Shown here: in pieces, positions 1 to 60,400 of the stretch
Position numbering within the stretch: position 1 is the stretch's first letter
How the letters are laid out: each line of letters begins with the position of its first letter
Origin: Henricia sp. BOLD:AAB3569
Taxonomy: Eukaryota > Echinodermata > Asteroidea > Spinulosida > Echinasteridae
Reading direction: 5' to 3'
Assembly (NCBI GenBank): GCA_037783545.1
Contig: JBBELK010000666.1
Coordinates: 913,001-977,000 of the forward strand
Length of the DNA: 64,000 bases
Made by a program: the position numbers and the translations under genes
The notes under the pieces: model-generated
The model's database searches: none
Seen by the model: the letters and a program-made list of their open reading frames with translations, nothing else
Told to the model about the DNA's origin: nothing

Positions 1-3000
1 TGGTACATAATGTGGGAGGGTCTGGGGGTCCTGGTACCACGCATTGCATGCTGGGATAGCTGTGATAATTTACCTGATATCCCCTGACGGTAGCCCCTCC
101 ATACAGCCTGGGCTCCCCCCATTCCAGAATGAACTCATCCCGTCTTGCCATGGTACAGCATAATGTGGGAGGGTCCGGGGGTCCTGGTACCACGCATTGC
201 ATGCTGGGATAGCTGTGATAATTTACCTGATATCCCCTGACGGTAGCCCCTCCATACAGCCTGGGCTCCCCCCATTCCAGAATGAACTCATCCCGTCTTG
301 CCATGGTACAGCATAATGAGGGAGGGTCCGGGGGTCCTGGTACCACGCATTGCATGCTGGGATAGCTGTGATAATTTACCTGATATCCCCTGACGGTAGC
401 CCCTCCATACAGCCTGGGCTCACCCCATTCCAGAATGAACTCATCCCGTCTTGCCATGGTACATAATGTGGGAGGGTCTGGGGGTCCTGGTACCACGCAT
501 TGCATGCTGGGATAGCTGTGATAATTTACCTGATATCCCCTGACGGTAGCCCCTCCATACAGCCTGGGCTCACCCCATTCCAGAATGAACTCATCCCGTC
601 TTGCCATGGTACATAATGTGGGAGGGTCTGGGGGTCCTGGTACCATGCATTGCATGCTGGGATAGCTGTGATAATTTACCTGATATCCCCTGACGGTAGC
701 CCCTCCATACAGCCTGGGCTCACCCCATTCCAGAATGAACTCATCCCGTCTTGCCATGGTACATAATGTGGGAGGGTCTGGGGGTCCTGGTACCACGCAT
801 TGCATGCTGGGATAGCTGTGATAATTTACCTGATATCCCCTGACGGTAGCCCCTCCATACAGCCTGGGCTCCCCCCATTCCAGAATGAACTCATCCCGTC
901 TTGCCATGGTACATAATGTGGGAGGGTCTGGGGGTCCTGGTACCACGCATTGCATGCTGGGATAGCTGTGATAATTTACCTGATATCCCCTGACGGCAGG
1001 CAGCCCCTCCATACAGCCTGGGCTCCCCCCATTCCAGAATGAACTCATCCTGTCTTGCCATGGTACAGCATAATGTGGGAGGGTCCGGGGATCCTGGTAC
1101 CACGCATTGCATGCTGGGATAGCTGTGATAATTTACCTGATATCCCCTGACGGCAGGCAGCCCCTCCATACAGCCTGGGCTCTCCCCATTCCAGAATGAA
1201 CTCATCCCGTCTTGCCATGGTACATAATGTGGGAGGGTCTGGGGGTCCTGGTACCACGCATTGCATGCTGGGATAGCTGTGATAATTTACCTGATATCCC
1301 CCGACGGTAGCCCCTCCATACAGCCTGGGCTCCCCCCATTCCAGAATGAACTCATCCCGTCTTGCCATGGTACAGCATAATGTGGGAGGGTCCGGGGGTC
1401 CTGGTACCACGCATTGCATGCTGGGATAGCTGTGATAATTTACCTGATATCCCCTGACGGCAGGCAGCCCCTCCATACAGCCTGGGCTCACCCCATTCCA
1501 GAATGAACTCATCCCGTCTTGCCATGGTACAGCATAATGTGGGAGGGTCCGGGGGTCCTGGTACCACGCATTGCATGCTGGGATAGCTGTGATAATTTAC
1601 CTGATATCCCCTGACGGCAGGCAGCCCCTCCATACAGCCTGGGCTCTCCCCATTCCAGAATGAACTCATCCTGTCTTGCCATGGTACAGCATAATGTGGG
1701 AGGGTCCGGGGGTCCTGGTACCACGCATTGCATGCTGGGATAGCTGTGATAATTTACCTGATATCCCCTGACGGTAGCTCCTCCATACAGCATGGGCTCA
1801 CCCCATTCCAGAATGAACTCATCCCGTCTTGCCATGGTACATAATGTGGGAGGGTCCGGGGGTCCTGGTACCACGCATTGCATGCTGGGATAGCTGTGAT
1901 AATTTACCTGATATCCCCTGACGGCAGGCAGCCCCTCCATACAGCCTGGGCTCACCCCATTCCAGAATGAACTCATCCCGTCTTGCCATGGTACAGCATA
2001 ATGTGGGAGGGTCCGGGGGTCCTGGTACCACGCATTGCATGCTGGGATATAGCTGTGATAATTTACCTGATATCCCCTGACGGCAGGCAGCCCCTCCATA
2101 CAGCCTGGGCTCTCCCCATTCCAGAATGAACTCATCCTGTCTTGCCATGGTACAGCATAATGTGGGAGGGTCCGGGGGTCCTGGTACCACGCATTGCATG
2201 CTGGGATAGCTGTGATAATTTACCTGATATCCCCTGACGGTAGCTCCTCCATACAGCATGGGCTCACCCCATTCCAGAATGAACTCATCCCGTCTTGCCA
2301 TGGTACATAATGTGGGAGGGTCTGGGGGTCCTGGTACCACGCATTGCATGCTGGGATAGCTGTGATAATTTACCTGATATCCCCCGACGGTAGCCCCTCC
2401 ATACAGCCTGGGCTCCCCCCATTCCAGAATGAACTCATCCCGTCTTGCCATGGTACAGCATAATGTGGGAGGGTCCGGGGGTCCTGGTACCACGCATTGC
2501 ATGCTGGGATAGCTGTGATAATTTACCTGATATCCCCTGACGGTAGCTCCTCCATACAGCATGGGCTCACCCCATTCCAGAATGAACTCATCCCGTCTTG
2601 CCATGGTACATAATGTGGGAGGGTCCGGGGGTCCTGGTACCACGCATTGCATGCTGGGATAGCTGTGATAATTTACCTGATATCCCCTGACGGTAGCCCC
2701 TCCATACAGCCTGGGCTCACCCCATTCCAGAATGAACTCATCCCGTCTTGCCATGGTACAGCATAATGTGGGAGGGTCCGGGGGTCCTGGTACCACGCAT
2801 TGCATGCTGGGATAGCTGTGATAATTTACCTGATATCCCCTGACGGTAGCCCCTCCATACAGCCTGGGCTCCCCCCATTCCAGAATGAACTCATCCTGTC
2901 TTGCCATGGTACAGCATAATGTGGGAGGGTCCGGGGGTCCTGGTACCACGCATTGCATGCTGGGATAGCTGTGATAATTTACCTGATATCCCCTGACGGC

Positions 3001-3431
3001 AGGCAGCCCCTCCATACAGCCTGGGCTCTCCCCATTCCAGAATGAACTCATCCTGTCTTGCCATGGTACAGCATAATGTGGGAGGGTCCGGGGGTCCTGG
3101 TACCACGCATTGCATGCTGGGATAGCTGTGATAATTTACCTGATATCCCCTGACGGTAGCTCCTCCATACAGCATGGGCTCACCCCATTCCAGAATGAAC
3201 TCATCCTGTCTTGCCATGGTACAGCATAATGTGGGAGGGTCCGGGGGTCCTGGTACCACGCATTGCATGCTGGGATAGCTGTGATAATTTACCTGATATC
3301 CCCTGACGGTAGCCCCTCCATACAGCCTGGGCTCCCCCCATTCCAGAATGAACTCATCCTGTCTTGCCATGGTACAGCATAATGTGGGAGGGTCCGGGGA
3401 TCCTGGTACCACGCATTGCATGCTGGGATAG
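1..3431 (-). repeat. Array A: exon-intron minisatellite over exon 33, 150-157 bp units
   Basis: About 22 copies; the array runs off the left end. Each unit holds the last 141 bp of exon 33, its donor and 12 bp of intron. Variants: a 3-bp deletion (150), and a 4-bp insertion (ggcaggcag instead of ggtag, 157) that shifts the frame. In 150 and 153 units the intron part has no stop, so the frame stays open through successive copies. Single-base variants are few, which points to recent homogenisation. Confidence 0.95.
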
Positions 3432-3491
3432 CTTTCATCCTGCCACATGTCATCGTATTGATTGGCATGGACAGTTATATCATAGAGACAC
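3293..3491 (-). CDS. Exon 33: FN3 end and start of next FN3; source exon of array A
   Basis: 199 bp, phase 2 to 0, residues 2038-2104. CLYDITVHANQYDDMWQDE closes the exon 31-32 domain; PGSPDPPTLCCTMARQDEF and ILEWGEPRLYGGATVRGYQ open another. Its last 141 bp plus 12 bp of intron are the 153-bp unit of array A. The low end assumes use of the first donor (gtaaat). The gene continues beyond position 1. Confidence 0.83.
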
Positions 3492-9400: not shown

Positions 9401-12400
9401 TTCTCAAAGACTATAGCACTTCAGACAAAACCATTTCAGGGGAAGTTTCCACGGTCATCATGTTTATATTGTGTAAGTTGGGCGTAAATCTGTGAACATT
9501 TCTGATTTTCTGACTTTAACAATAGCAATTTAATCTTGGTTTCCCTTTGTTTTGACACCGATATCAGAAACGGTGAAACATTTACACCAACCTGACTGCT
9601 GCTTGGGTAGTGTGAAGCATACAGGCTGGGAGGTTGACACATCGGATGAGTCAAGCCAGTTAGGCTCCTTGCTATGACTTATCAGCTTCCGGCTAAGACT
9701 CCTATCAGTGGTAGTTATAGCAGCTAAGATAACCTGATAGGACTGGGCTTCTGTGCAGTGCAGTCTGTACTGCTGTGTGTTGGGTTGGAGGTATGCATGA
9801 GTGGTTCCATTGAGTTGAAGTCTGTACCCAAGGAGGATGCGGCGGATGCATTTGGAACATACAGGATCATCTGAAGGAAGTTAAGGTTAACATTTGGGAA
9901 TGAGAATCATCTGAACAACTCGACCAATAAGCTTACAATCACAATCAGTATTAAAGGCACAGGCTCGTCAGCAATGCACGCGGGCCAAATTTGAACCCCG
10001 AAATACGCAGCTCCATAGCAAAGGCATGGAGCTGCCTATTTCGTGGCACGAATTTGGCGCGTGCCACAATTTGAGGCCGTAAGTTTAAATCATGCAAACA
10101 ATAGATGTGTTGCTTTGCTAGTTGTGCAATGATGCAACACCAAGATAAAAGTTTTGTTCTCAACTCTTTCACTTCGGCAAGTCGCTCACAGCAGCTCGAG
10201 AAATGTCTACTTCCAGCCAGAAAGCCGCTGTGAGTAGCTCACCTTTACACATAAACAGTCCTTGTCACAGAGTCTTTAAAGAGTTAAAGAAAACCTGAGG
10301 GAGTACGCCACTGTGTCTCATAGATTCTTCCTGAGGACATAGCATAAACTGCAAAGTGATTACATATGACCTGCTCTGGTGAAATGATGTTGGATGTTGC
10401 ACAGTCTGGGTCTAGTTTTTGCGACCCTAACTAGAATCAGCTGTGGATTCAGGGCAATTAAAATGCAAAATATGTCTAAAATTGTTCAGTACCCTCCGGA
10501 ATTTCTATTGTATTTTCATAATTTTAATGATCCTGCAGCCGATTTCCCAAAAAAGTGTGTAGCTTGTGCAACTTTTGAAAATGGCATAAGCCCCATACCT
10601 TGTGTGTAATTATAACAGTAATGTTCCATAGCTTACAATAATCTTTGTTACAAACCAATGAGACAAAAGAAAGTTTCGGGAAAAACCGGAACAATCACAT
10701 CCCTGGCAATAAAAAGTTGTGCAAGTGGGGCTTACGCAGTGTGTAAGGTTTTGTGAAATCGGCTGCTGGATCACCCACTGTGTGACATCTCACTATTTCG
10801 CCAGAATGGGTCACATATAACATGCCACTAAATACCTGGGTCTTTGATCGCCGTCATTAACAGCGGCTTCTCCCAGTACAAATCCAACCATGATGGCGCA
10901 AACCCTGTGATGATCATGTCTGGTGCAATACACGGTGCAGGTACTCTAACGATGTACGGCTCAGAATCCAACCTCGTTAACTCCTCCTGGACAGCGCGGC
11001 TTCGTTTCTTAGACTTCCTCTTAGATGTTTTATTACAGTCTTGTCCGGAAATGATTGCAGAAACTATGAAGCAGTACACGTGGCCTTGAACTAAATCCGA
11101 GATATGACAGGATGTCCTGTCACTTGGAATCTCAATCATGTACGAATTACTAGTAGAAGTCACACTGTTGTTTTTCACTTGCGTCCATTGTACTTCGTAT
11201 TTTCTAACAGTAGACGTCGTTCCATCATATTCAGGTCCTGTCCACATTAAGACAGCTACGCCATCTTCACTAAAATCACATCTTAAGTTACTTGGAGGCA
11301 ATGCACCTTCAGTCGTTACATCGATGCTGATACACGGTAGCCATGGGGAATCCTTAGGTATTAGGTTCCAGTCCTCGGACAGGTTCCTTAGGCGTTGTTC
11401 AGGGGATGCTTGATACAAGAACTCGTCCGTAATGGTGACTAGGTGTAAGGAGTAGCTAGTGGATTCTTGTAGATGCTTGATGATTGCTGACGTGGCGTCT
11501 GGTAAGAGGTCCATGTGTTGTAGCGTCCTCACACAGTCATCATGTAGCGTTGTCACGTAAATTCGCAAACCTACAAAATGAAGCAATCATACATGTTGGA
11601 TAATTCACATGAACACAAACATTGGCCATATAAACAATTTTTGTTTCAATGAAAGGTTATAAAATCAGCAACATGACTGGAATGCTTTTACCAAGTTGCT
11701 TCTAAAAGTAGACAAAATTGAATTCGATAGAAATGTGGGGATTAAACCTCCATGAGTTTGGGAAATCTTGATGCAGTGAAAAGTAACCTGGCTCCACCGG
11801 GATTTGAACCGCGGACCTTCTGCTTAACGTGCAGACGCCCTACCAATTGAGCTATAAAGCCAACTGGTGGTCTCGAATCACGGTATTGCAGTTGTTCCTC
11901 ACTGATTGGGATTGGCTATCCTGTGATACAGAGGAATAAACCCATCAATGCAATAACCAAGCCCTCATAAAGACCACTTAAAGGTATAGTACATCATTTG
12001 CAGTGACCCCATTATTTTTTTCAAGAGTTGACAAGAAAAACAATGGTACCAAACATCACATGATTTTATTTCAGCCCCCTTCTCTCTGGGTGGATGCCAG
12101 GTTAACTGGACAGTGTTTGAACTGACCAGTGCAGTGGTCAGTTTGCTGGGTGGTTCTGGTGGACTGGCCGTAGTGACAGCAATTTACTCTACGTAATGAC
12201 CACCAAACAGTTGATCATACCTCTAACTTCAGCCCCCTTCTCTCTGGGTGGATGCCAGGTTAACTGGACAGTGTTTGAACTGACCAGTGGTCAGTTTGCT
12301 GGGTGGTTCTGGTGGACTGGCCGTAGTGACAGCAATTTACTCTACGTAATGACCACTAAACAGTTGATCATACCTCTAACTTCAGCCCCCTTCTCTCTGG

Positions 12401-15400
12401 GTGAGTGCCAGGTTAACTGGACAGTGTTTGAACTGACCAGTGCAGTGGTCAGTTTGCTGGGTGGTTCTGGTGGACTGACCGTAGTGACAGCAATTTACTC
12501 TACGTAATGACCACCAAACAGTTATCATACCTCTAACTTCAGCCCCCTTCTCTCTGGGTGAGTGCCAGGTTAACTGGACAGTGTTTGAACTGACCAGTGC
12601 AGCGGTCAGTTTGCTGGGTGGTTCTGGTAGACTGGCCGTAGTGACAGCAATTTACTCTACGTAATGACCACTAAACAGTTTATCATACCTCTAACTTCAG
12701 CCCCCTTCTCTCTGGGTGAGTGCCAGGTTAACTGGACAGTGTTTGAACTGACCAGTGCAGCGGTCAGTTTGCTGGGTGGTTCTGGTAGACTGGCCGTAGT
12801 GACAGCAATTTACTCTACGTAATGACCACCAAACAGTTGATCATACCTCTAACTTCAGCCCCCTTCTTTCTGGGTGGATGCCAGGTTAACTGGACAGTGT
12901 TTGAACTGACCAGTGCAGCGGTCAGTTTGCTGGGTGGTTCTGGTAGACTGGCCGTAGTGACAGCAATTTACTCTACGTAATGACCACCAAACATACAGTT
13001 GATCATACCTCTAACTTCAGCCCCCTTCTCTCTGGGTGAGTGCCAGGTTAACTGGACAGTGTTTGAACTGACCAGTGCAGTGGTCAGTTTGCTGGGTGGT
13101 TCTGGTAGACTGGCCGTAGTGACAGCAATTTACTCTACGTAATGACCACCAAACAGTTGATCATACCTCTAACTTCAGCCCCCTTCTCTCTGGGTGAGTG
13201 CCAGGTTAACTGGACAGTGTTTGAACTGACCAGTGCAGCGGTCAGTTTGCTGGGTGGTTCTGGTGGACTGGCCGTAGTGACAGCAATTTACTCTACGTAA
13301 TGACCACTAAACAGTTTATCATACCTCTAACTTCAGCCCCCTTCTCTCTGGGTGGATGCCAGGTTAACTGGACAGTGTTTGAACTGACCAGTGCAGCGGT
13401 CAGTTTGCTGGGTGGTTCTGGTGGACTGGCCGTAGTGACAGCAATTTACTCTACGTAATGACCACCAAACAGTTGATCATACCTCTAACTTCAGCCCCCT
13501 TCTCTCTGGGTGGATGCCAGGTTAACTGGACAGTGTTTGAACTGACCAGTGCAGCGGTCAGTTTGCTGGGTGGTTCTGGTAGACTGGCCGTAGTGACAGC
13601 AATTTACTCTACGTAATGACCACCAAACAGTTATCATACCTCTAACTTCAGCCCCCTTCTCTCTGGGTGGATGCCAGGTTAACTGGACAGTGTTTGAACT
13701 GACCAGTGCAGTGGTCAGTTTGCTGGGTGGTTCTGGTGGACTGGCCATAGTGACAGCAATTTACTCTACGTAATGACCACCAAACAGTTGATCATACCTC
13801 TAACTTCAGCCCCCTTCTCTCTGGGTGGATGCCAGGTTAACTGGACAGTGTTTGAACTGACCAGTGCAGCGGTCAGTTTGCTGGGTGGTTCTGGTAGACT
13901 GGCCGTAGTGACAGCAATTTACTCTACGTAATGACCACCAAACAGTTGATCATACCTCTAACTTCAGCCCCCTTCTCTCTGGGTGGATGCCAGGTTAACT
14001 GGACAGTGTTTGAACTGACCAGTGCAGCGGTCAGTTTGCTGGGTGGTTCTGGTAGACTGGCCGTAGTGACAGCAATTTACTCTACGTAATGACCACCAAA
14101 CAGTTGATCATACCTCTAACTTCAGCCCCCTTCTCTCTGGGTGAGTGCCAGGTTAACTGGACAGTGTTTGAACTGACCAGTGCAGTGGTCAGTTTGCTGG
14201 GTGGTTCTGGTGGACTGGCCGTAGTGACAGCAATTTACTCTACGTAATGACCACCAAACAGTTGATCATACCTCTAACTTCAGCCCCCTTCTCTCTGGGT
14301 GAGTGCCAGGTTAACTGGACAGTGTTTGAACTGACCAGTGCAGTGGTCAGTTTGCTGGGTGGTTCTGGTGGACTGGCCGTAGTGACAGCAATTTACTCTA
14401 CGTAATGACCACCAAACAGTTGATCATACCTCTAACTTCAGCCCCCTTCTCTCTGGGTGGATGCCAGGTTAACTGGACAGTGTTTAAACTGACCAGTGCA
14501 GTGGTCAGTTTGCTGGGTGGTTCTGGTGGACTGGCCGTAGTGACAGCAATTTACTCTACGTAATGACCACTAAACAGTTTATCATACCTCTAACTTCAGC
14601 CCCCTTCTCTCTGGGTGAATGCCAGGTTAACTGGACAGTGTTTGAACTGACCAGTGCAGCGGTCAGTTTGCTGGGTGGTTCTGGTGGACTGGCCGTAGTG
14701 ACAGCAATTTACTCTACGTAATGACCACCAAACAGTTGATCATACCTCTAACTTCAGCCCCCTTCTCTCTGGGTGGATGCCAGGTTAACTGGACAGTGTT
14801 TGAACTGACCAGTGCAGCGGTCAGTTTGCTGGGTGGTTCTGGTAGACTGGCCGTAGTGACAGCAATTTACTCTACGTAATGACCACCAAACAGTTGATCA
14901 TACCTCTAACTTCAGCCCCCTTCTCTCTGGGTGGATGCCAGGTTAACTGGACAGTGTTTGAACTGACCAGTGCAGCGGTCAGTTTGCTGGGTGGTTCTGG
15001 TAGACTGGCCGTAGTGACAGCAATTTACTCTACGTAATGACCACCAAACAGTTATCATACCTCTAACTTCAGCCCCCTTCTCTCTGGGTGGATGCCAGGT
15101 TAACTGGACAGTGTTTGAACTGACCAGTGCAGCGGTCAGTTTGCTGGGTGGTTCTGGTAGACTAGCCGTAGTGACAGCAATTTACTCTACGTAATGACCA
15201 CCAAACAGTTATCTTACCTCTAACTTCAGCCCCCTTCTCTGTGGGTGGATGCCAGGTTAACTGGACAGTGTTTGAACTGACCAGTGCAGTGGTCAGTTTG
15301 CTGGGTGGTTCTGGTAGACTGGCCGTAGTGACAGCAATTTACTCTACGTAATGACCACCAAACAGTTGATCATACCTCTAACTTCAGCCCCCTTCTCTCT

Positions 15401-17810: not shown

Positions 17811-17841
<31 letters not shown>

Positions 17842-38800: not shown

Positions 38801-39462
38801 AAACGCCCCATGTGACACTTTGAAACATTTATTAGCCTTAGGGGTTGCAAAATATATTAAATCATACAAAATTCATTTTGTTGTTCAATGTGCTACATAT
38901 TACTGTGCGTTAGAATAACCAATTTGTACAATTATCAGACATTATCAGCTCATTTAGGGCTGCCCATTTCATGTTACATAAATAATTTACATGGGGCGTT
39001 TATATTTTTGCTGAGTGTACAACCAGACAAAGTAGCAAAGTAATATGACACTTCACATAATAATTATGATATACAGAAACACAACAAGTAAAGAGAAAAG
39101 TCACATTTCATTACATTTCTTTGACCATCTCTAAATTTCCTAGAAAGTTTCAGATTGTATCAATTTTTTAAAACTTTCTATGAAATCTTTCAGCATTTTT
39201 CACAACAAACTTTATGCTTGCCACGTACCGCTTCAACAACTGCTGCCATTTGTTTAATAGTTTAGTAAACCTCAAATATCATTTAGTGCCTCACCATTCA
39301 AGTGATCTCTTGGATGGGAGAGGTTGACTAGATTCTTGTGGTGTGTTAACCTGATTCAGAGTGGAAACTGACCCATCAAAGCTCTCTCTCTGCTCAAGGG
39401 TGGGTAGAAGATTGGTATTACCATCTGTAATGTACACGTATACAGTTGTAGTCGGAAGTTTA

Positions 39463-39493
<31 letters not shown>

Positions 39494-45400: not shown

Positions 45401-48400
45401 TCAATCGTATTAATATTGTCAGCTAGCCCAGCCTGGCATGACAGAATGGGTCCTCCTAGCTCATAGATGGTAGGGCAGCTAACTTGCTGTGGAATCAATT
45501 GTATTAACATTGTCAGCTAGCCCAGCCTGGCATGACAGAATGGGTCCTCCTGGCTCATAGATGGTAGGGCAGCTAACTTGCTGTGGAATCAATTGTATTA
45601 ACATTGTCAGCTAGCCCAGCCTGGCATGACAGAATGGGTCCTCCTAGCTCATAGATGGTAGGGCAGCTAGCTTGCTGTGGAATCAATCGTATTAATATTG
45701 TCAGCTAGCCCAGCCTGGCATGACAGAATGGGTCCTCCTAGCTCATAGATGGTAGGGCAGCTAGCTTGCTGTGGAATCAATTGTATTAACATTGTCAGCT
45801 AGCCTAGCCTGGCATGACAGAATGGGACCTCCTAGCTCATAGATGGTAGGGCAGCTAGCTTGCTGTGGAATCAATTGTATTAACATTGTCAGCTAGCCCA
45901 GCCTGGCATGACAGAATGGGTCCTCCTAGTTCATAGATGGTAGGGCAGCTAGCTTGCTGTGGAATAAATCGTATTAACATTGTCAGCTAGCCTAGCCTGG
46001 CATGACAGAATGGGTCCTCCTAGCTCATAGATGGTAGGGCAGCTAACTTGCTGTGGAATCAATTGTATTAACATTGTCAGCTAGCCCAGCCTGGCATGAC
46101 AGAATGGGTCCTCCTGGCTCATAGATGGTAGGGCAGCTAACTTGCTGTGGAATCAATTGTATTAACATTGTCAGCTAGCCCAGCCTGGCAGGACAGAATG
46201 GGTCCTCCTGGCTCATAGATGGTAGGGCAGCTAACTTGCTATGGAATCAATCGTATTAACATTGTCAGCTAGCCCAGCCTGGCATGACAGAATGGGTCCT
46301 CCTGGCTCATAGATGGTAAGGCAGCTAACTTGCTATGGAATCAATCGTATTAACATTGTCAGCTAGCCCAGCCTGGCATGACAGAATGAGTCCTCCTAGC
46401 TCATAGATGGTAGGGCAGCTAACTTGCTGTGGAATCAATTGTATTAACATTGTCAGCTAGCCCAGCCTGGCATGACAGAATAGGTCCTCCTAGCTCATAG
46501 ATGGTAGGGCAGCTAGCTTGCTGACGTATTAACATTGTCAGCTAGCCCAGTCTGGCATGACAGAATGAGTCCTCCTAGCTCATAGATGGTAGGGCAGCTA
46601 ACTTGCTGTGGAATCAATTGTATTAACATTGTCAGCTAGCCCAGCCTGGCATGACAGAATGGGTCCTCCTAGTTCATAGATAGTAGGGCTGCTAACTTGC
46701 TGTGGAATCAATCGTATTAACATTGTCAGCTAGCCCAGCCTGGCATGACAGAATGGGTCCTCCTAGCTCATAGATGGTAGGGCAGCTAACTTGCTGTGGA
46801 ATCAATTGTATTAATGGAAATTTTGGTTGTAAACCCATTTATTACACAAGATTTCTCACACTCAAGCAATTTGTTGCGCTTAAGCAGCTCTGTGAAATTG
46901 GCTCCAGAGGTCTTGACTCAAATTTGTTTCGTCAATCATTTCTTTAACTCACAAATTTTTGTACAATCTCAATTTGCATTATTTTAAATCCCAATGCACC
47001 TTATTGAATACCTGACACCTTGCGGGTCAACTTTTGTTGTCAAAAATGCATGTCCTCAAGGAACAAAGAAACTGGCCTACAAGACGCCAGCTATTCGATA
47101 GTCTATATCACAACTGCAATTAAATGAAATGAGGTACCAGTCTATTTGACTCATGTGGCTGCAGTGTCGAGTCCTTTGGCTGTGCAATGACGTAGATGAT
47201 GTAGGTCTGGTCCCCTGCCAACCCCTCTACGGCAATACTGTGGCATGTTGGTGGTAGGTCATTGTGGTAGCATATGCCGTTTACATACAGCTGAAATTTA
47301 GAGATTAGATAAATGACATGTTTAGACACGACAACACCTTGAGCATGTTTCTACCGATCACAATAATCTTTTTGGAAATGCCTCAATACCATTATCCATC
47401 CAGTACAAATGGCCTTAATTTGGCAGTAGAAGCAACAGATGACACTTTTTGCCTATAAAGCTGGTGCATATTACCAAATACTATTGTCCGGGAAAATTGT
47501 ATTGGTTGAGTATTATGTAGTTCGCGTAATCAAAGATCATTGTAACTTTGTGCTAAACTCTGAATGTCATTGGGGAGTGTATAAAAACACCTCTTGGGTC
47601 GCTTTCAGTACTTTAACATATCCAGAAATGCAAGTAAACACAACACAAAAAGTAAGTCCCCCCCTAAATAACTCCTCATAATTTCTTAAGAACTTTTTAA
47701 AGATCACGACTAGTAAGGAATATTTCTACTGTTGTTGGGTAACAACTTCATAGCTGACTGAGCACAAATTAAAGACAAAATGACCCAATTTCAAAATTCA
47801 CAAGAGTGTATGCATTGGACTCCTGCACTTGTACTCAACTGGAAAAATACTCAGATAAAGGTTATTAACTACAACACTGAAAGATCTGACAAGACTAGCA
47901 ATAGTGATTATTATATATAATGAAGCTTTTGCAAGCACCATGCGTTTCTGATACTGTGCAGCACAGAGCCCTAATCAGATACGCGTCCACGCTGGGCGCA
48001 CCAAAGCAGAAGCGTACGCGCACGTCTGTGCGTGTGTGCAACGCGTGTGTGCGTGCAACACGCGCGCGAGTACAGTAACAAAAGCGAATGCAGTTGTAAA
48101 CGTTGCAAATGAACTGAAGTATTCAACACCAAACAGAAAAAAATCTTGCGGGAATCTTACAAAACAAAGAAGGTATCAGCTTCATTTGATATAATATTGG
48201 ATGTCTTTTCGGGTGATATGAGAATATACCGCACTCGTCATTCGGCATTGTCATGACTCATTCAGTGTTTTCATGAGTTGTGCGCTATATTCTCATATCA
48301 CCCTGAAAGCCATCCATTATATAATTACCTGATATGCCTTGAGTTCTCCTCTGTAGGGTATACTTGGCAAGTCCCAGTAGATCTCCATTGAGCTATCTGA

Positions 48401-51400
48401 AGCACTATGCAGCCATCCGCTGATAGATGGTACACAGTTATACCATTGCCACTTGCTCTGAAAAGTCAGCACAGATTCAAAGTCTAATTGGTCATTGTTT
48501 GCCATATATGATGGTACTTTTAATGCAAGTAAAAACATGCTCTACATGCAAGTCATTGTTTGTAAAATCAAATTTTTGACTCTAGGGCACTGCATCTAGG
48601 GCACTGCATCTACGGGGACTGCATTCTGCAACCAACATTTTTCCTTGTTTGTCCTTCTCTCCCAATTCCCTCTTTCCTAATCCGTGTCTTGCTAAGCCCA
48701 GAGCTGCCATCCCTCCCGGATTTTGCAACAGATTCCTTGGAAAATGACTAATTTTGTGAGTCCTGACATGGATAAAAACCCTCCTGGATTGTCAATTAAC
48801 AACCTTGGGGATTTTTAGATGTGTTTGGAGTCACAGAATGAACCTGTTTTCCCAGATGTCTTCCTCAAAATCCGGGAGGGTTGGCAGCTCTGTAAGCCTA
48901 CCCACTTTTTTGCCCGACTGCTTCTCTTTATGTTCCTCTTGGCTTAATTTGTCTATGCCCTAGCCAGTTGGAACATGAAGCCACCCTATGGTATCACTAT
49001 ACTAAATTAACCCGAATGAAAAGCAAAACCACAAAGAATGTGACCGGATTACTAACCGGTCCAGGGCCGTGGTTCTGCAGGTCAGTATCAAAATCATCAG
49101 TTGCCATGGACACACTGTCTTCATCCTCTGAGCTTGTGTTCACATTGCCTTCTAAGACCCAGAAACGTCTGAAGAGGAAACAAAACACAATGCAAATAGG
49201 CAACACAGTAGAACTTCGTTATAATGAACAAAACAGACATCAGTAATGCCCGAGGATCAACAATTGTACTCACTTTGAGGAAAACACGCCACTCGGCAAT
49301 GCACCACTGCTGATTGCAATAGCTCGGATGATGTGAAGTCCAGAATGCTTTAGAATGATGCCCTTCTCTAGCTTGTACACCTGCAGGAACAATACAATGT
49401 GGCTGGTTGGCTAGAAAATACGTACAAGCTCTAGGGACTGGGGGCTAGTCTAGGTATGAATGGTAGGGAATGCATACCCTATAGTAAACCTGCCATGGAG
49501 TTCTGGTATAGAGCCATCTAACGTATACAGGATACTGGGGGCTAGTCTAGGTATGAATGGTAGGGAATGCATACCCTAGTAGCACTGCCATGGAGTTCTG
49601 GTATAGAGCCATCTAACGTATACAGGATACAGGCAGACTGGGGGCTAGTCTAGGTATGAATGGTAGGGAATGCATACCCTAGTAGCACTGCCATGGAGTT
49701 CTGGTATAGAGCCATCTAACGTATACAGTATACTGGCAGACTGGGGGCTAGTCTAGGTATGAATGGTAGGGAATGCATACCCTAGTAGCATTGCCATGGA
49801 GTTCTGGTATAGAGCCATCTAACGTATACAGGATACAGGCAGACTGGGGGCTAGTCTAGGTATGAATGGTAGGGAATGCATACCCTATAGTAAACCTGCC
49901 ATGGAGTTCTGGTATAGAGCCATCTAACGTATACAGTATACTGGCAGACTGGGGGCTAGTCTAGGTGGGAATGCATACCCTAGTAGCACTGCCATGGAGT
50001 TCTGGTATGGAGCCATCTAACATATACAGGATACTGGCAGACTGGGGGCTAGTCTAGGTATGAATGGTAGGGAATGCATACCCTATAGTAAACCTGCCTT
50101 GGAGTTCTGGTATAGAGCCATCTAACGTATACAGGATACAGGCAGACTGGGGGCTAGTCTAGGTATGAATGGTAGGGAATGCATACCCTAGTAGCACTGC
50201 CATGGAGTTCTGGTATAGAGCCATCTAACGTATACAGGATACTGGCAGACTGGGGGCTAGTCTATGTATGAATGGTAGGGAATGCATACCCTAGTAGCAC
50301 TGCCATGGAGTTCTGGTATGGAGCCATCTAACGTATACAGGATACTGGCAGACTGGGGGCTAGTCTAGGTATGAATGGTAGGGAATGCATACCCTAGTAG
50401 CACTGCCATGGAGTTCTGGTATAGAGCCATCTAACGTATACAGGATACTGGCAGACTGGGGGCTAGTCTAGGTATGAATGGTAGGGAATGCATACCCTAG
50501 TAGCACTGCCATGGAGTTCTGGTATAGAGCCATCTAACGTATACAGGATACTGGCAGACTGATGGGGGCTAGTCTAGGTATGAATGGTAGGGAATGCATA
50601 CCCTAGTAGCACTGCCATGGAGTTCTGGTATAGAGCCATCTAACGTATACTGGCAGACTGGGGGCTAGTCTAGGTATGAATGGTAGGGAATGCATACCCT
50701 GGTAGCACTGCCATGGAGTTCTGGTATAGAGCCATCTAACGTATACAGGATACTGGCAGACTGGGGGCTAGTCTAGGTATGAATGGTAGGGAATGCATAC
50801 CCTGGTAGCACTGCCATGGAGTTCTGGTATAGAGCCATCTAACGTATACAGGATACAGGCAGACTGGGGGCTAGTCTAGGTGGGAATGCATACCCTAGTA
50901 GCACTGCCATGGAGTTCTGGTATAGAGCCATCTAACGTATACAGGATACTGGCAGACTGGGGGCTAGTCTAGGTATGAATGGTAGGGAATGCATGTACCC
51001 TAGTAGCACTGCCATGGAGTTCTGGTATAGAGCCATCTAACGTATACAGGATACTGGCAGACTGGGGGCTAGTCTAGGTATGAATGGTAGGGAATGCATA
51101 CCCTAGTAGCACTGCCATGGAGTTCTGGTATAGAGCCATCTAACGTATACAGGATACTGGCAGACTGATGGGGGCTAGTCTAGGTATGAATGGTAGGGAA
51201 TGCTTGTACCCTAGTAGCACTGCCATGGAGTTCTGGTATAGAGCCATCTAACGTATACAGGATACTGGCAGACTGATGGGGGCTAGTCTAGGTATGAATG
51301 GTAGGGAATGCATGTACCCTATAGTAGCACTGCCATGGAGTTCTGGTATAGAGCCATCTAACGTATACAGGATACTGGCAGACTGGGGGCTAGTCTAGGT

Positions 51401-54400
51401 ATGAATGGTAGGGAATGCATACCCTGGTAGCACTGCCATGGAGTTCTGGTATAGAGCCATCTAACGTATACAAGATACTGGCAGACTGATGGGGGCTAGT
51501 CTAGGTATGAATGGTAGGGAATGCATACCCTAGTAGCACTGCCATGGAGTTCTGGTATAGAGCCATCTAACGTATACAGGATACAGGCAGACTGGGGGCT
51601 AGTCTAGGTATGAATGGTAGAGAATGGCAGTGCTACTAGGGTATTATTATTATTATTATTATTTCTTTCTGGTATTCATACCAAGGATTCCTCAAGTGCT
51701 CATTGCACTGTCACTCGTAAGCGTGAGGAAACCATGAAGAATTAGAATTAGAAATGGCCAGAGACATCGGGGAATCCCCTTGCTCTTCACGAAAGAATGC
51801 TCTGGGATCTTTAGAGTGCGTTACCATTACCTAACACACTAGATCAACGGCTTTACATCCCTTCCGAAGGATAGAGCAAGTGTGGTTGAGTGCCTTGCCC
51901 AAGGGCACAGGTACCGCAGCCGGATTCGAACCCGCAACCCCAAGTTTTCACCCATGATTGCGAGTCAATGGCCCTAACCACTCGGCCACGGTACCCCACT
52001 ACATCTGGTATAGAGCCATCTAACGTATACAGGATACTGGGGGCTAGTCTAGGTATAGGTAAAACTTAAGGCTATGCATGGTGGAAATCAACGTGTGTAT
52101 GGGTTTACGGTAGCACCATGTGAATCTCATTTGTGAATCTCATAATCTCATTTGTAGTCTAGGTATGAATGGTAGGGAATGCATACCCTAGTAGCACTGC
52201 CATGGAGTTCTGGTGTAGAGCCATCTAACGTATACAGGATACTGGCAGACAGGGGGCTAGTCTAGGTATGAATGGTAGGGAATGCATACCCTAGTAGCAC
52301 TGCCATGGAGTTCTGGTATGGAGCCATCTAACGTATACAGGATACTGGCAGACAGGGGGCTAGTCTAGGTATGAATGGTAGGGAATGCATACCCTAGTAG
52401 CACTGCCATGGAGTTCTGGTATAGAGCCATCTAACGTATACAGGATACTGGCAGACTGGGGGCTAGTCTAGGTATGAATGGTAGGGAATGCATACCCTAG
52501 TAGCACTGCCATGGAGTTCTGGTATAGAGCCATCTAACGTATACAGGATACTGGCAGACAGGGGGCTAGTCTAGGTATGAATGGTAGGGAATGCATACCC
52601 TAGTAGCACTGCCATGGAGTTCTGGTATAGAGCCATCTAACGTATACAGGATACTGGCAGACAGGGGGCTAGTCTAGGTATGAATGGTAGGGAATGCATA
52701 CCCTAGTAGCACTGCCATGGAGTTCTGGTATAGAGCCATCTAACGTATACAGGATACTGGCAGACTGGGGGCTAGTCTAGGTATGAATGGTAGGGAATGC
52801 ATACCCTAGTAGCACTGCCATGGAGTTCTGGTATAGAGCCATCTAACGTATACAGGATACTGGCAGACTGGGGGCTAGTCTAGGTATGAATGGTAGGGAA
52901 TGCATACCCTAGTAGCACTGCCATGGAGTTCTGGTATGGAGCCATCTAACGTATACAGGATACTGGCAGACAGGGGGCTAGTCTAGGTATGAATGGTAGG
53001 GAATGCATACCCTAGTAGCACTGCCATGGAGTTCTGGTATAGAGCCATCTAACGTATACAGGATACTGGCAGACTGGGGGCTAGTCTAGGTATGAATGGT
53101 AGGGAATGCTTACCCTAGTAGCACTGCCATGGAGTTCTGGTATAGAGCCATCTAACGTATACAGGATACTGGCAGACTGGGGGCTAGTCTAGGTATGAAT
53201 GGTAGGGAATGCATACCCTAGTAGCACTGCCATGGAGTTCTGGTATAGAGCCATCTAACGTATACAGGATACTGGCAGACAGGGGGCTAGTCTAGGTATG
53301 AATGGTAGGGAATGCATACCCTAGTAGCACTGCCATGGAGTTCTGGTGTAGAGCCATCTAACGTATACAGGATACTGGCAGACTGGGGGCTAGTCTAGGT
53401 ATGAATGGTAGGGAATGCATACCCTATACTAGTAGCACTGCCATGGAGTTCTGGTATAGAGCCATCTAACGTATACAGGATACTGGCAGACTGGGGGCTA
53501 GTCTAGGTATGAATGGTAGGGAATGCATACCCTATACTAGTAGCACTGCCATGGAGTTCTGGTATAGAGCCATCTAACGTATACAGGATACTGGCAGACT
53601 GGGGGCTAGTCTAGGTATGAATGGTAGGGAATGCATACCCTAGTAGCACTGCCATGGAGTTCTGGTATAGAGCCATCTAACGTATACAGTATACTGGCAG
53701 ACTGGGGGCTAGTCTAGGTATGAATGGTAGGGAATGCATGTACCCTAGTAGCACTGCCATGGAGTTCTGGTATAGAGCCATCTAACGTATACAGGATACT
53801 GGCAGACAGGGGGCTAGTCTAGGTATGAATGGTAGGGAATGCATACCCTAGTAGCACTGCCATGGAGTTCTGGTGTAGAGCCATCTAACGTATACAGGAT
53901 ACTGGCAGACTGGGGGCTAGTCTAGGTATGAATGGTAGGGAATGCATACCCTAGTAGCACTGCCATGGAGTTCTGGTGTAGAGCCATCTAACGTATACAG
54001 GATACTGGCAGACTGGGGGCTAGTCTAGGTATGAATGGTAGGGAATGCATACCCTATACTAGTAGCACTGCCATGGAGTTCTGGTATAGAGCCATCTAAC
54101 GTATGCAGGATACTGGCAGACTGATGGGGGCTAGTCTAGGTATGAATGGTAGGGAATGCATACCCCAGTAGCACTGCCATGGAGTTCTGGTATAGAGCCA
54201 TCTAACGTATACAGGATACTGGCAGACTGGGGGCTAGTCTAGGTATGAATGGTAGGGAATGCATACCCTAGTAGCACTGCCATGGAGTTCTGGTATGGAG
54301 CCATCTAACGTATACAGGATACTGGCAGACTGGGGGCTAGTCTAGGTATGAATGGTAGGGAATGCATACCCTAGTAGCACTGCCATGGAGTTCTGGTATA

Positions 54401-57400
54401 GTATACAAATATTGACTGCTCATGAGGGTGATGGTGCAAACTATCGTCCCGAGGTTATTTTGAGACGGCAGGCCTGCTATTTTCCCGAGGCCGTAGGCCG
54501 AGGGAAAATAGCAGGCCTGCCGTCTCAAAATAACCGAGGGACGATAGTTTGCTCCATAACCCGAATAAAGAGCAGTCAATATTTGTTTTATATACCTCAT
54601 ACATTGATTTTATGTGTCAAAATTATTGGTATTTTTGACCTATGACGCAGAGGTCAAACAATAGTACTTTTTCAGTTGCCCAAAATTGTACTATCCTTTG
54701 ACCTATGACGCAAAGGTCAAACAATAGTACTTTTTTTAGTTGCCGTCGGAAATGGTTAAACTATTCCATGTCAGGTGATCTGCTTTTAACCAATCAGTTA
54801 ACGAGACTCAATGTATGAGGTATATAAAGCCATCTAACGTATACAGGATACTGGCAGACTGATGGGGGCTAGTCTAGGTATGAATGGTAGGGAATGCATA
54901 CCCCAGTAGCACTGCCATGGAGTTCTGGTATAGAGCCATCTAACGTATACATGATACTGGCAGACTGGGGGCTAGTCTAGGTATGAATGGTAGGGAATGC
55001 ATACCCTAGTAGCACTGCCATGGAGTTCTGGTATGGAGCCATCTAACGTATACATGATACTGGCAGACTGGGGGCTAGTCTAGGTATGAATGGTAGGGAA
55101 TGCATACCCTAGTAGCACTGCCATGGAGTTCTGGTATAGAGCCATCTAACGTATACAGGATACTCGCTGACTCTGAGCTTGACTGTAGCTCTACAGTGTG
55201 GTAGTGTTCAACCACTCCCCCATTGCAGGTGGATGTGATAATGGGCATTGCTGAAAGCGATTCTGAAAGTCATAAATAACAATGAAAATGCGTAGTAAAG
55301 TGGCATTTACATTATCACGGAAAAGTCACACCGAAGTGCTACATACGTTTCTTTGTTTTAGCTTTGAGTCACCAGTTTTTCTGAAATGGATAATTGTTAC
55401 CTACTCTGCAGAACGGTATAATAAGTCACGCAGGCTAGGTCGAGTTTTGCGACCAGAAGAAGAAATCTGCGGAAGATCCACGCTCATTAAAATACAAAAA
55501 ACACAATGAACATTCCATGTGGAACATGAACATGTATTTTTGTATTTTAAAGAGCATGGATCTGCTGCAGATTTCTTCTTATGGTCGCTGAAGACTCAAC
55601 CTAGCCTGCGTGACTTATTCTACCTTTTTGCTAAGCAGGTCACAATTCGAATCACATGTTCTGCTGTGATAGGAAAACTATTGGTTGCACGTTGTAAAGG
55701 ATAGGCATATTAGGAGGTCATTCTCATAGCCGGCATCTTTGTAGGCCATCTTCATATAATAGGGGATTGTTGTTAAGTATGTAAATTTCATACAGACTTA
55801 ACAAAAGGTTGATCTTAAAGACACATGATTGGAAAACTTTTAAAAACAGAAACACCAGCATTAGAAAACAGAAATATGTTGATAAACTGCCTTGTAGACA
55901 TTTCAGCCACATGGATGCAGTAAAACCTTAAAACTCTATGCATGGTTTTTGTGTTGAATGAATGGTAAAACAAATGCATAGTTCCGAGTTTGCCTAGTTA
56001 GCCCCGCCCCCGTGGATATTGTTGCTATGGCTCACACGCTATCGTCAAAATGTAGACACACAACGCACAAAGCAATGGGACTTTCAACAGAAAGCACAGA
56101 TTCATTGGAGAAAACTCAAAGGTATTCATGTTTCAGGGTCGACAGTTATCTTAGAACACACCGAGTAAAGGGCCAGTAATACAGGGATGTCATATCATGA
56201 CATACGTGCTTTCGTACCTTTGAACAACGAAACGACCGGCCTTGAAACCAAAAATTCACCCGGATCATCGCATACAACACTGTACAAATTGTATGGGGCC
56301 GGCAGAACATATCGCGTGATCATGTTGTTGTGAGACAGTGCACTTTGACCTATGTCAGTGATATCTGCTAGCTCTGTTGTGATTGGTCGGCGGGTTCGGT
56401 TGATTGACAGGTCGGAACTATGCATTGCCTGCAGACCTTCAGTCGGCTATTTCTCCTACAAAGGTACCATTTTACATAGTTGGGTTTTTCTTGTCAACTG
56501 AAGTAATTTCGGGTAACTTCAAATGATGTATTATTTGGCGCTCATCCACGGCTTTTTCCTACCAAAGCAACAACTATCGAATGCAAAAATGAATTCAAAA
56601 GACAAATTTAAAGTAACAAATGAATGAAATAGTTCATCACTAGACAATGGCATGAGAAACATACATGAACACACACACACATAACGAAAATGGCCAAGTC
56701 AAACTTCTCCCAATCAAATGGTCAATATTGGAAGCGCCAAGAAATATGATCCACAAAGCACTACTCACCATTATCCTGAACATTCACCACACCAACGCAA
56801 CCCGGCGCCCCCTCAGATGTCTCATAATATGCCCCTGGCTCCTCAAACATGAACAGGAAGCTGTTATTAGGCTGTGGGTTACCACTGCTAAAGGCAAGGG
56901 GACCAGTGACGGGGCTGTAGGGACATTCATGGGTTGGTGGATTGGCATGAACGATGTTGTGAGTTTCAGATTGGCTGCCCTTCCATGACCATAGCACAGA
57001 CTGACCCTGTGTAGAGCGGACAAGAGAAAGTATGAGTCTATAAGATAAGGGGCTGTCTAAAGTTGTCAACATTTTCACAGTTCCACAAAGAGTAATATTT
57101 TTCAAGAGCCCCTCCTTCCCCTGAAATACTACTTATCTGTACCATGAACATTTCACAGCGCATGTAAAGTCCTATGTGTCCTACTATGCACTGAAAACCA
57201 CAGCATCACAAAGACAGTTTCGGCCCAAGTTTTCAGTTTCATTTCACTCAAAACTCCTTCTATACTGCTTTTGCTCAAACGGTTCGTGCCAAACTCACGC
57301 GCGACAAAGCCGAATGTGAATGTAGCCTTACCCTGTGTATGCTGACTGCTGGGGGCTTGAAGCCTTTACTAGACACTAGCACCGTGACAGTACCACTTGG

Positions 57401-60400
57401 GTTACTGACTACGACACTGCTCAGAACCGTCTTACTGCTGTGCTCATACTGCAAAACACGTACACAGACAACGTGCGACAAGGCTGAGTGTGAATGCACC
57501 CAATACCCTGTGTATGCTGACTGCTGGAGGCTTGAAGCCTTTACTAGACACTAGCACCGTGACAGGACCACTTGGGTTACTGACCACGACACTGCTCAGA
57601 ACCGTCTTACAGCTGTGTTCATACTGCAAAACACGTACACAGACAACGTGCGACAAGGCTGAGTGTGAATGCACCCCTTACCCTGTGTATGCTGACTGCT
57701 GGGGGCTTGAAGCCTTTACTAGACACTAGCACCGTGACAGGACCACTTGGGTTACTGGCTACGACACTGCTCAGAACCGTCTTACTGCTGTGTTCATACT
57801 GCAAAACACGTACACAGACACAACGCGCGCTAGGGCTGAGTGTGAATGCACCCCTTACCCTGTGTATGCTGACTGCTGGGGGCTTGAAGCCTTTACTAGA
57901 CACTAGCACCGTGACAGGACCACTTGGGTTACTGACTACGACACTGCTCAGAACCGTCTTACTGCTGTGCTCATACTGCAAAACACGTACACAGACACAA
58001 CGTGCGACAAGGCTGAGTGTGAATGCACCCCTTACCCTGTGTATGCTGACTGCTGGGGGCTTGAAGCCTTTACTAGACACTAGCACCGTGACTGGACCAC
58101 TTGGGTTACTGACCACGACACTGCTTAGAACCGTCTTACTGCTGTGCTCATACTGCAAAACACGTATACAGACACAACGCGCGCTAGGGCTGAGTGTGAA
58201 TGCACCCCTTACCCTGTGTATGCTGACTGCTGGGGGCTTGAAGCCTTTACTAGACACTAGCACCGTGACTGGACCACTTGGGTTACTGACTACGACACTG
58301 CTCAGAACCGTCTTACTGCTGTGCTCATACTGCAAAACACGTACAAAGGCACAAAACAGCATTAGATGACAACATTCTTACAAATAATTAAGTGACAATA
58401 TCGGAAAATAAAATGAGTTAACTTTTCTGACTAGCAGTGATCAAAGCAATACCCAAGTATGGTGGCATATAAAGGGCCACAGATGGAAACAATGGTAACA
58501 AATAAAATGCACAATTTTCCCAAATACAGAAAAGAAAAGATTGAACCGTTATAGACCTTTATCACGGTGTGGCCATCTTCCCTTTTTCCCTATTAAAATG
58601 AATGTAACCAAAGCGAAGCTTGCCAAAATAAAATAGTTTGGCCCCGTGTTGAAAATGTTCATTGTGTGCATCACAATGACAGCGCGCGGTGCGATCAAGA
58701 AAATGCACAGCGCGGACAGTGATTCTCTCAAAACAACAACGGAAGACTGCACGCGCTATCGCGCAGACACGCAATCGCACTGATCATGCCCGACAAGTAC
58801 ACGTACTATATGCAGTGGGGAACAAGACGAAGATGGACAACACACCGTGATAAAGGTCTATATCACTAGAACTCAACACAAGCTTTCTTGCTATTGCATG
58901 TGTCCATTCCTGCTATTGCATGTGTCCATTCCTGCTATTGTATGTGCCCTGCTGCCAAAATACCAAAGGCACTACTGTATACTGTTTGCCATTGATGAAC
59001 TGGTTCTTAGGTTAAGATTTGTTGCAGAAAGAGCAATCAACCAAGCTTCTGCACATTTACAGGCACTAAATTTTAGACGCTACAAAAATGTTGGTAACAA
59101 ACAAATGCAATTTGACATAAACTCTCACCATAAACTTGTCTACTTTGTTTGAGAATGCTTTGCTGTAGTAGTGATACACCCCAGGATTGGAAAACCGTAA
59201 GGCACAACACCGTCTGTAATGTAACATCAATATAATACAGATAGATTCATGATTACTAAAAATGCAATAGAGTCTAACCTCCGTAAACACTGGGCCTTTT
59301 CACGTGTAAATGCAATGCGCGTTGCTTTGAGACAAAGCGGTGTGGCAGGAATTTGGATTGAAACAATGCATTGTTTGTGATACAACCCAGGATTGGAAAA
59401 CCGCAAGGCACAACACCTTCTGTAATGTAACATCAATATAATACAGATAGATTCATGATTACTAAAAATGCAATACAGTCTAACCTCCTTTAAACACTGG
59501 GCCTTTTCACATGTAAATGCAATGCGCGTTGCTTTGAGACAAAGCGGTGTGGCAGGAATTTGGAATGAAACAATGCATTGTTTGTGACCCAGGATTGGAA
59601 AACCGCAAGGCACAACACCTTCTGTAAAATACCATAAATATAATACAGATAGATTCATCATTACTAAAAAATTGTCTTTCCCTCATCTCCTTTTCTTTCT
59701 TCTTGTAAGCGCCTTGCATCCTCAGGTAATTTGGCGCTATATAAGTACAGTTATTATTATTATTAAACAGAATGCATAGTGCCGACCTGTCAATCAAGCC
59801 GAACCCGCCGACCAATCACAACAGAGCTAGGAGACAGCGCCCACATAGGTCAAAGTGCATTGCATCACAAACAATCACGCGATTTTCTGCCCACACAGTT
59901 TGTACAGCGTTGTATGCGCGATCCGGGTGAATTTTGGGTTCAATGTCGGGCTATTAGCTGTTCAAAGGTAGGAAAACGCATTTTTATGAATATATGGCAT
60001 CCCTGCATTACTAGCCCTTTGCTCAGTGTGTGCTACGGTACCTGTCGACCCTAAAACATAAATACCTTTGAGTTTTCTCCAATGAATCTGTGCTTTCCAT
60101 GCCGAGTCCCGTTGCTTTGTACGTTGTGTCGCCATTTTTTTGCGATGGCTTGTGAGCACATAGCAACAGTATCTAAGGGGCGGAGTTAACTGGGCAATCT
60201 CGGAACTATGCATTACAAACACACTTTCCGCCCAAGTTGATTCTGTGGTGTTCAGTGCATCGTTTTACTCCAAATTCCCTCCACACATCTTTTTTTCAAA
60301 GCAATGCGCGTCCAAATTACGCCTGAAATAGCTTAGTGTGAATCCACCCTAATTGGAACTTTGTAGATTACCTTGTTATAACAAGAACCCTGTACTATCA

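Follow-up and report, generated by a model that had tools for sequence, protein, structure and literature searches.

Mirage minisatellites at the exon borders of a sea star gene: probably neutral exon-edge expansions in a probable regional hot spot

A 64,000-nucleotide stretch of the genome of the sea star Henricia sp. BOLD:AAB3569 (contig JBBELK010000666.1, here C666, positions 913,001–977,000; hereafter the window, in whose numbering all coordinates are given unless prefixed) contains one large minus-strand gene riddled with long minisatellites. Nine tandem arrays with units of 82–177 base pairs (bp) and 6 to ~46 copies were found, and eight of these nine include a predicted exon border: five the donor side of an exon, one the acceptor side and two a whole exon. 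Arrays of this kind are already known as mirages, as they span a border, keep the exon at the array edge and carry decoy AG or GT sites in their copies. They are most probably largely neutral expansions of exon edges, tolerated through exon definition, in a neighbourhood that is a probable hot spot for such events. Arrays were detected with Tandem Repeats Finder (TRF) and cyclic alignment, their edges were read base by base, and the assembly searched comprised 740.7 Mb in 2104 contigs.

In the five donor-side arrays (A, B, C, D and H, all on the minus strand), every unit contains a donor, and the unique 5′ half of the exon is present only at the upstream edge. Array A (6–3433; 153-bp unit, 22 full copies in the window; true exon 3491–3293) has a unit made of 141 bp of exon 3′ part, the donor and 12 bp of intron; it continues outside the window to −691, giving ~27 copies in total, and at its far edge a donor is followed by different intron sequence, as a simple duplication would leave it. 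Array B (12070–16911; 158-bp unit, ~31 copies) lies on the donor side of an FN3 exon (16969–16796) and has a 7-unit higher-order repeat. Beyond its low edge, at 11990–12080, the frame continues as AEIKSCDVWYH with the look of an FN3 strand, though the model splices elsewhere. Array C (25980–28285; 136-bp unit, 17 copies; exon 28325–28215) ends at its low edge in an old, diverged copy, and identity drops with the distance between copies. Array D (29173–34396; 169-bp unit, ~31 copies) belongs to an FN3-like exon (34435–34266), and array H (49436–55172; 103-bp unit, 46 donor copies in two blocks) to a CHB_HEX_C exon (55262–55108). Array H is broken up by a tRNA-like short interspersed nuclear element (SINE; ~51900–52000, strongly folding, inside the larger block) and by a foldback, an inverted repeat at 54402–54551 between the two blocks.

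The remaining three border arrays, also on the minus strand, differ in what each unit holds. In array G (44865–46814; 94-bp unit, 21 copies) each unit carries the acceptor and 53 bp of exon 5′ part, and the unique 3′ half of the exon lies at the downstream, low edge of the array (true exon 44917–44747). Arrays F (41020–44069; 153- and 117-bp units, 21 copies, diverged at the edges) and I (57297–58354; 177-bp unit, 6 copies, the first exon copy at ~58329–58213) repeat a whole exon of 109 and 117 bp, respectively, without any unique exon half, and their exons are separated by spacers of 44 bp (F) and 60 bp (I). Both splice sites are present in 6/6 copies of array I, while in array F the donor is found in 21/21 copies and the acceptor in 16/21. 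A possible further border array at 59171–59670 (minus strand; ~2.4 copies of a ~206-bp unit) has three copies of an acceptor followed by ~34 bp of what may be an exon with its donor at 59128; it has no domain support and is a plausible case.

The arrays had been described earlier in a sequence-only reading, whose letters A–D are retained here and whose E, F, G, H and I correspond, judging from the descriptions, to F, G, H, I and the 59171–59670 repeat. Of the eight or nine border minisatellites claimed there, eight are borne out and the ninth is plausible but unproven. The assignment to border types holds for A, B, C, D and H (donor), G (acceptor) and I (whole exon), and is qualified for F by the 5/21 copies that lack an acceptor; similarly, the unique exon part was to be found at one edge of every array, which is so in A, B, C, D, H and G but not in F and I.

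Across the border units, 52–92% of the sequence is exon part and the intron parts measure 12–65 bp. As had been claimed, the exon part is intact in nearly all copies, being open and unshifted in 174/191 full copies (five H segments below 85% identity around the SINE insertion were dropped beforehand, and five short F copies were counted as open). The suggested total of some 200 decoy splice sites is likewise close: the arrays hold 172 donor GT and 43 acceptor AG, or ~205 decoys once the 10 true sites are subtracted. The idea that a unit could be read as a miniature exon plus a tiny intron is possible but weak given these intron lengths, and none of the AGs concerned in A, B, D and H scores above ~3.5, although three acceptors of the gene model score equally low (1.5–2.1 on the same rough matrix).

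The exon borders rest on a 26-exon gene model built from splice-site scores, open frames and the look of domains, the donor and acceptor scores coming from rough home-made matrices based on general knowledge. Phase agrees at 23/25 junctions, a non-blind form of support since phases were visible while sites were chosen, and missed exons are probably hidden at the two misfits (x12–x13 and x24–x25). In Pfam searches the model matched FN3 (97.6 bits, in three stretches in the second part of the gene) and CHB_HEX_C_1 (31.2 bits), while cupredoxin fell below the cut-off and plastocyanin matched weakly (E 0.027) over the x4–x5 junction at array I. No homologs of the joined model were found at E 0.001. 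Joining exons across an array strengthened domain matches: over the intron of array B, FN3 scored 39.8 bits joined versus 17.6 and 13.7 bits apart, the downstream partner being the array-free FN3 exon x23 (10836–11570, minus strand), which the model joins to the first donor of B. Over the intron of array H, CHB_HEX_C_1 scored 35.7 bits joined versus 28.4 bits and none apart, with exon x7 (49274–49380, minus strand) completing the domain. The exons of D and C and the following exon x15 (24589–24869, minus strand) matched FN3 only as a joined triple (18.9 bits, below the Pfam cut-off of 25). The exons of F, G and A are placed by phase and splice sites; those of G and F gave no fn3 match, and no downstream partner exon for array A was found within the window. 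Thus, of the domains proposed earlier for the array exons, FN3 in B and CHB_HEX_C in H are supported, cupredoxin is weak, D and C stay below the cut-off, and FN3 in G and F was not recovered.

The excess of arrays at borders was compared with random placement after collapsing each array to one unit (35.6 kb left, 13% exonic, 52 borders). Borders were included by 8/9 arrays versus 1.64 expected (P 8e-6), by 6/7 when the whole-exon arrays F and I were left out (P 1.4e-4), and the 8/9 gives P 1.7e-4 if up to 72 borders are assumed, all of these values being post hoc since the window was selected for its oddness. However, if duplicated segments are at least half exonic, the chance that all eight include a border is 0.05, so that targeting of splice sites is hard to separate from targeting of exons.

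The likeness to amphioxus mirages, named in the earlier description, is upheld. Ebner et al. (2010) described such repeats in amphioxus globin genes and named them mirages after those of Adh3 (PMC3087553). As here, the repeats of BflGb6 and BflGb9 have units of ~150–160 bp over the exon–intron boundary, occur as donor and acceptor types, contain AG and GT in their copies and have edge copies that escape homogenization, but BflGb6 has 6 and 3 units on two haplotypes and BflGb9 a duplicate (PMC3087553), whereas the Henricia arrays of the window and its flanks (see below) have 6–49 copies, number 18 over three adjacent genes, and in two or three cases hold a whole exon. In Adh3 (Canestro 2002, via PMC3087553), minisatellites with units of 10–72 bp lie over exon–intron borders and are unstable in length, and globin RT-PCR (reverse transcription polymerase chain reaction) together with the Adh3 data suggest that mirages leave splicing undisturbed (PMC3087553). 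Similarly, lancelet PGBD5 has two arrays (60 and 108 bp) at splice sites in one gene, with only 2–7 copies that differ in number between assembly versions, and troponin C is cited in the same paper (PMC3902484), while VCBP3 introns contain complete or partial exon copies (PMC2632668).

Mirages have also been proposed as a route to intron gain (PMC3087553), in which tandemly duplicated exon-border segments supply ready-made AG and GT sites; intron gain by tandem duplication is also the subject of a paper on potato RdRp (PMC4974935). The Henricia arrays share such duplicated segments, seen here as repeats inside introns. In the mostly open-access literature searched, no report of a regional mirage cluster, of a donor bias or of tens of copies was found. 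Mirages have been put forward as a source from which new introns could arise, but the published cases that were found have just one or two arrays in each gene, all of them short; 18 arrays in three genes over 304 kb are enough to ask how mirages originate, why donors predominate and how splicing ignores dozens of near-identical sites.

The arrays are not confined to the gene in the window. In 240 kb of flanking sequence, TRF gave 17 further clusters that pass cut-offs of 50 bp in unit length and 2.5 in copy number, of which 10/17 lie at exon borders, one of the ten being unclear. Two belong to the same gene, at −19833 to −17205 (FN3-like by eye, with only a sub-threshold Pfam match) and at 65232–66097 (cupredoxin-like by eye, no Pfam match). 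A KLHL-like gene on the plus strand holds three (BTB 60.8 and 35.2 bits, Kelch_1 35.4 bits), and a minus-strand ALDH1L gene the other five. Three of these five have Pfam matches, and the ALDH1L exon pieces fall in order on residues 139–209, 409–470, 565–630 and 665–693 of PDB 7rlu. One flank array, marked by ELGGK, has 49 acceptor copies and the unique exon half at its 3′ edge and is therefore acceptor-side; the array at −79220 carries an ALDH1L exon end with donor but no unique exon half was found, and it is the one counted as unclear. For 7/17 clusters no exon border was found nearby, and the arrays at −22994 (171 bp), 76701 (64 bp) and −30349 (74 bp), where a scan gave no exon, were counted as non-border. 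The notion that the window gene is special is not supported, given the eight arrays of the adjoining KLHL-like and ALDH1L genes.

Together, window and flanks contain 18 border arrays (13 donor-side, 2 acceptor-side and 3 whole or unclear) that cover 56 kb of the 304-kb stretch. The donor bias of 13:2 has a binomial P of 0.007 when arrays from the three genes are treated as independent.

The following sequence of events would best account for these arrays. A segment of ~94–177 bp comprising an exon edge and the adjoining intron would have been tandemly duplicated, and the duplicates would then have expanded within the introns by unequal exchange or slippage, again and again in the same probable hot-spot neighbourhood. 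Duplication followed by expansion is supported by the higher-order repeat of array B, the fall of identity with distance in C, the diverged edge copies of C and F, and the far edge of A. The resulting copies would mostly be unused by splicing, because decoys lack a proper partner site and exon definition would tolerate them: the true donor would be the only one with a proper acceptor across an exon of normal size, and also the one transcribed first, while in arrays of the G type the true acceptor would be the only one with a downstream donor. We infer that splicing fidelity is kept by exon definition in this way, the copy next to the unique half of the exon being the one chosen.

Whether the neighbourhood itself favours such events was assessed in gene families elsewhere in the assembly, where the same exon piece repeated at short spacing was taken as the sign of an array and judged by eye; a long open frame of the genome-search matches, tried as an alternative sign, was dropped. 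BTB gave 81 matches (144/144 candidates scored), 17 of them on C666 and 15 of these in the KLHL array, while the 64 matches elsewhere formed no repeated-exon cluster. Nor did the 67 TCP1 matches (87/87 candidates scored) or the 83 Myosin matches (65 of 218 candidates scored), and among 14 Aldedh matches (13 of 184 candidates scored) the only pair lies on C666. In these four families, therefore, 226 matches off C666 include no cluster of one exon piece at short spacing, where paired complete BTB domains that share a frame (C23, C1409) do not count as arrays. Three 10-kb tiles from other contigs, run through TRF, likewise had no long-unit array except tRNA-like ones in two. A regional hot spot around the window is accordingly likely, though not proven. 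More specifically, in a region of at least ~170 kb a mutational process acting on the ends of exons, 5′ splice sites above all, may have converted borders in three adjacent, unrelated genes on both strands to long minisatellites, with sampled exons elsewhere almost free of them, a proposal we hold tentatively and at rather less than even confidence.

Several observations weigh against neutral edge expansion in a hot spot. At their low edges, arrays B and D end within the exon part, and array G has ~22 bp of filler, so that simple outward growth from the border into the intron, as claimed earlier and as seen at the far edge of A, fails to explain every edge. The family searches revealed only 2/5 of the known C666 arrays in BTB and Aldedh, many of the 226 matches are allele pairs, and two of the families were only partly scored. 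The right-hand 100 kb of the flank, which has no border arrays, consists mainly of transposon-like open reading frames (ORFs) and is unusable as a gene control. In addition, FN3 (150 of 845 candidates scored) shows dense, regular matches on C24 and C103, where whole domains form tandem units of ~471 and 1200 bp that are 92–99% alike on two apparent haplotypes. These we take for a titin-like coding repeat, other in kind than the border arrays, and they were excluded from the 226, but they lower the weight of a hot spot aimed at exon ends. Finally, synonymous changes among the copies are more numerous than expected (46 versus 33.2, P 0.006; P 0.18 and 0.54 in the shifted frames) and the exon part of array I has diverged less than its intron part (11/702 versus 19/361 cells, P 0.001), either of which could indicate that some copies are used.

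With regard to such use, the open frames themselves say little because copies within an array differ by only 2–5%. The synonymous excess is found among changes shared between copies (27 versus 17.9 expected, P 0.009), which is read as reflecting older variants that had once gone through the exon in use, and single-copy changes show no clear excess (19 versus 15.3, P 0.16). In arrays A (P 0.05), B (P 0.07) and H (P 0.0004), the exon part is more variable than the intron part. If any copies are used, those of array I are the strongest candidates, and F and I could be working exon cassettes of which one among several copies is chosen. The 6/6 open copies of I with both sites, the conservation of its exon, the length of that exon, which preserves the frame, and the synonymous changes of F and I together (14 versus 8.7 expected, P 0.024) all argue for cassettes, but the copies encode nearly identical peptides, joining two of the 109-bp F exons would break the frame, acceptors are missing from 5/21 F copies and the spacers measure 44 and 60 bp, so that cassettes seem improbable.

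For the origin of the duplications, the sequence-only reading favoured a mechanism tied to splice sites, transcription or R-loops, and mutagenesis connected with transcription or with 5′ splice sites, through pausing, U1 binding or R-loops, would fit both the concentration of window arrays at borders and the donor bias across the three genes. The R-loop component finds no support, however, as coding-strand GC skew in the eight units is inconsistent (−0.24 to +0.09) and the coding strand is not regularly G-rich. Hairpin z-scores are unremarkable in all but 1/16 strands (one of D, −2.2), and no motif is shared by the eight units, the commonest 7-mer occurring in 3/8 units and equally widely in 79/100 shuffled sets. 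Furthermore, the donor bias could stem from mutation favouring 5′ splice sites or from selection: a downstream decoy donor would compete with a true donor that has already been transcribed, whereas an upstream decoy acceptor would precede the true one, and selection alone would yield the bias if splicing suffers more from decoy acceptors upstream than from decoy donors downstream. Mutagenesis directed by splice sites is rather unlikely. Slightly better placed, though still short of an even chance, is the possibility that a property of exons, such as higher G+C or nucleosomes, draws the duplications, with borders included by geometry since a unit and an exon are of similar length. Exons have 49% G+C and introns 40%, and the large exon share of the units and the geometric probability of 0.05 given above agree with this, but the exon share among border placements is without clear excess (single P 0.05–0.45) and exon targeting does not predict the donor bias.

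It is very improbable that the arrays are an assembly artefact or a chance coding look-alike. Although a search for exon x23 on a second haplotype found no copy, array copies bear variants of their own, domains join across arrays, adjacent ALDH1L exons match solved structures, and for the published PGBD5 repeats a re-examination of Sanger data and new Illumina sequencing confirmed the arrays (PMC3902484). Neutral expansion of exon edges remains the favoured account. A scan of nearby introns for ghost copies of the array-free exons gave six short matches after filtering.

The only long-unit array of the window that is not at an exon border is an intronic 82-bp array (36276–38728, minus strand, ~30 copies), which was considered as a ninth exon array and rejected as tRNA-SINE-like. 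A tRNA match in Rfam (57 bits, minus strand) at 11789–11861 is perhaps a SINE head, and the 82-bp unit resembles it in the B-box (83% over 24 bp, E 1.4e-4) and the A-box (76% over 25 bp, E 0.02). The array itself has no Rfam match, its strand folds no better than shuffles, and ARAGORN predicts no tRNA gene in the window.

Other repeats and open frames were also noted. An intronic open frame of 383 amino acids at 34991–36139 has no Pfam family above the cut-off, and a 33-bp array (60607–61169, 17 copies) has long open frames on both strands and lies off all model exons. In the downstream flank of the gene, a 37-bp array with ~112 copies (−14007 to −9791; ~C666:898993–903209) falls below the unit-length filter. 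Beside the array-rich region, at ~104000–178000, segments with ORFs like those of long interspersed nuclear elements are repeated ~33 kb apart, a probable large tandem duplication. Similar tRNA-like arrays of 77–78 bp occur at ~C666:804277–805367 and on C387 and C205, where the array has 34.6 versus 12.6 copies on two apparent haplotypes.

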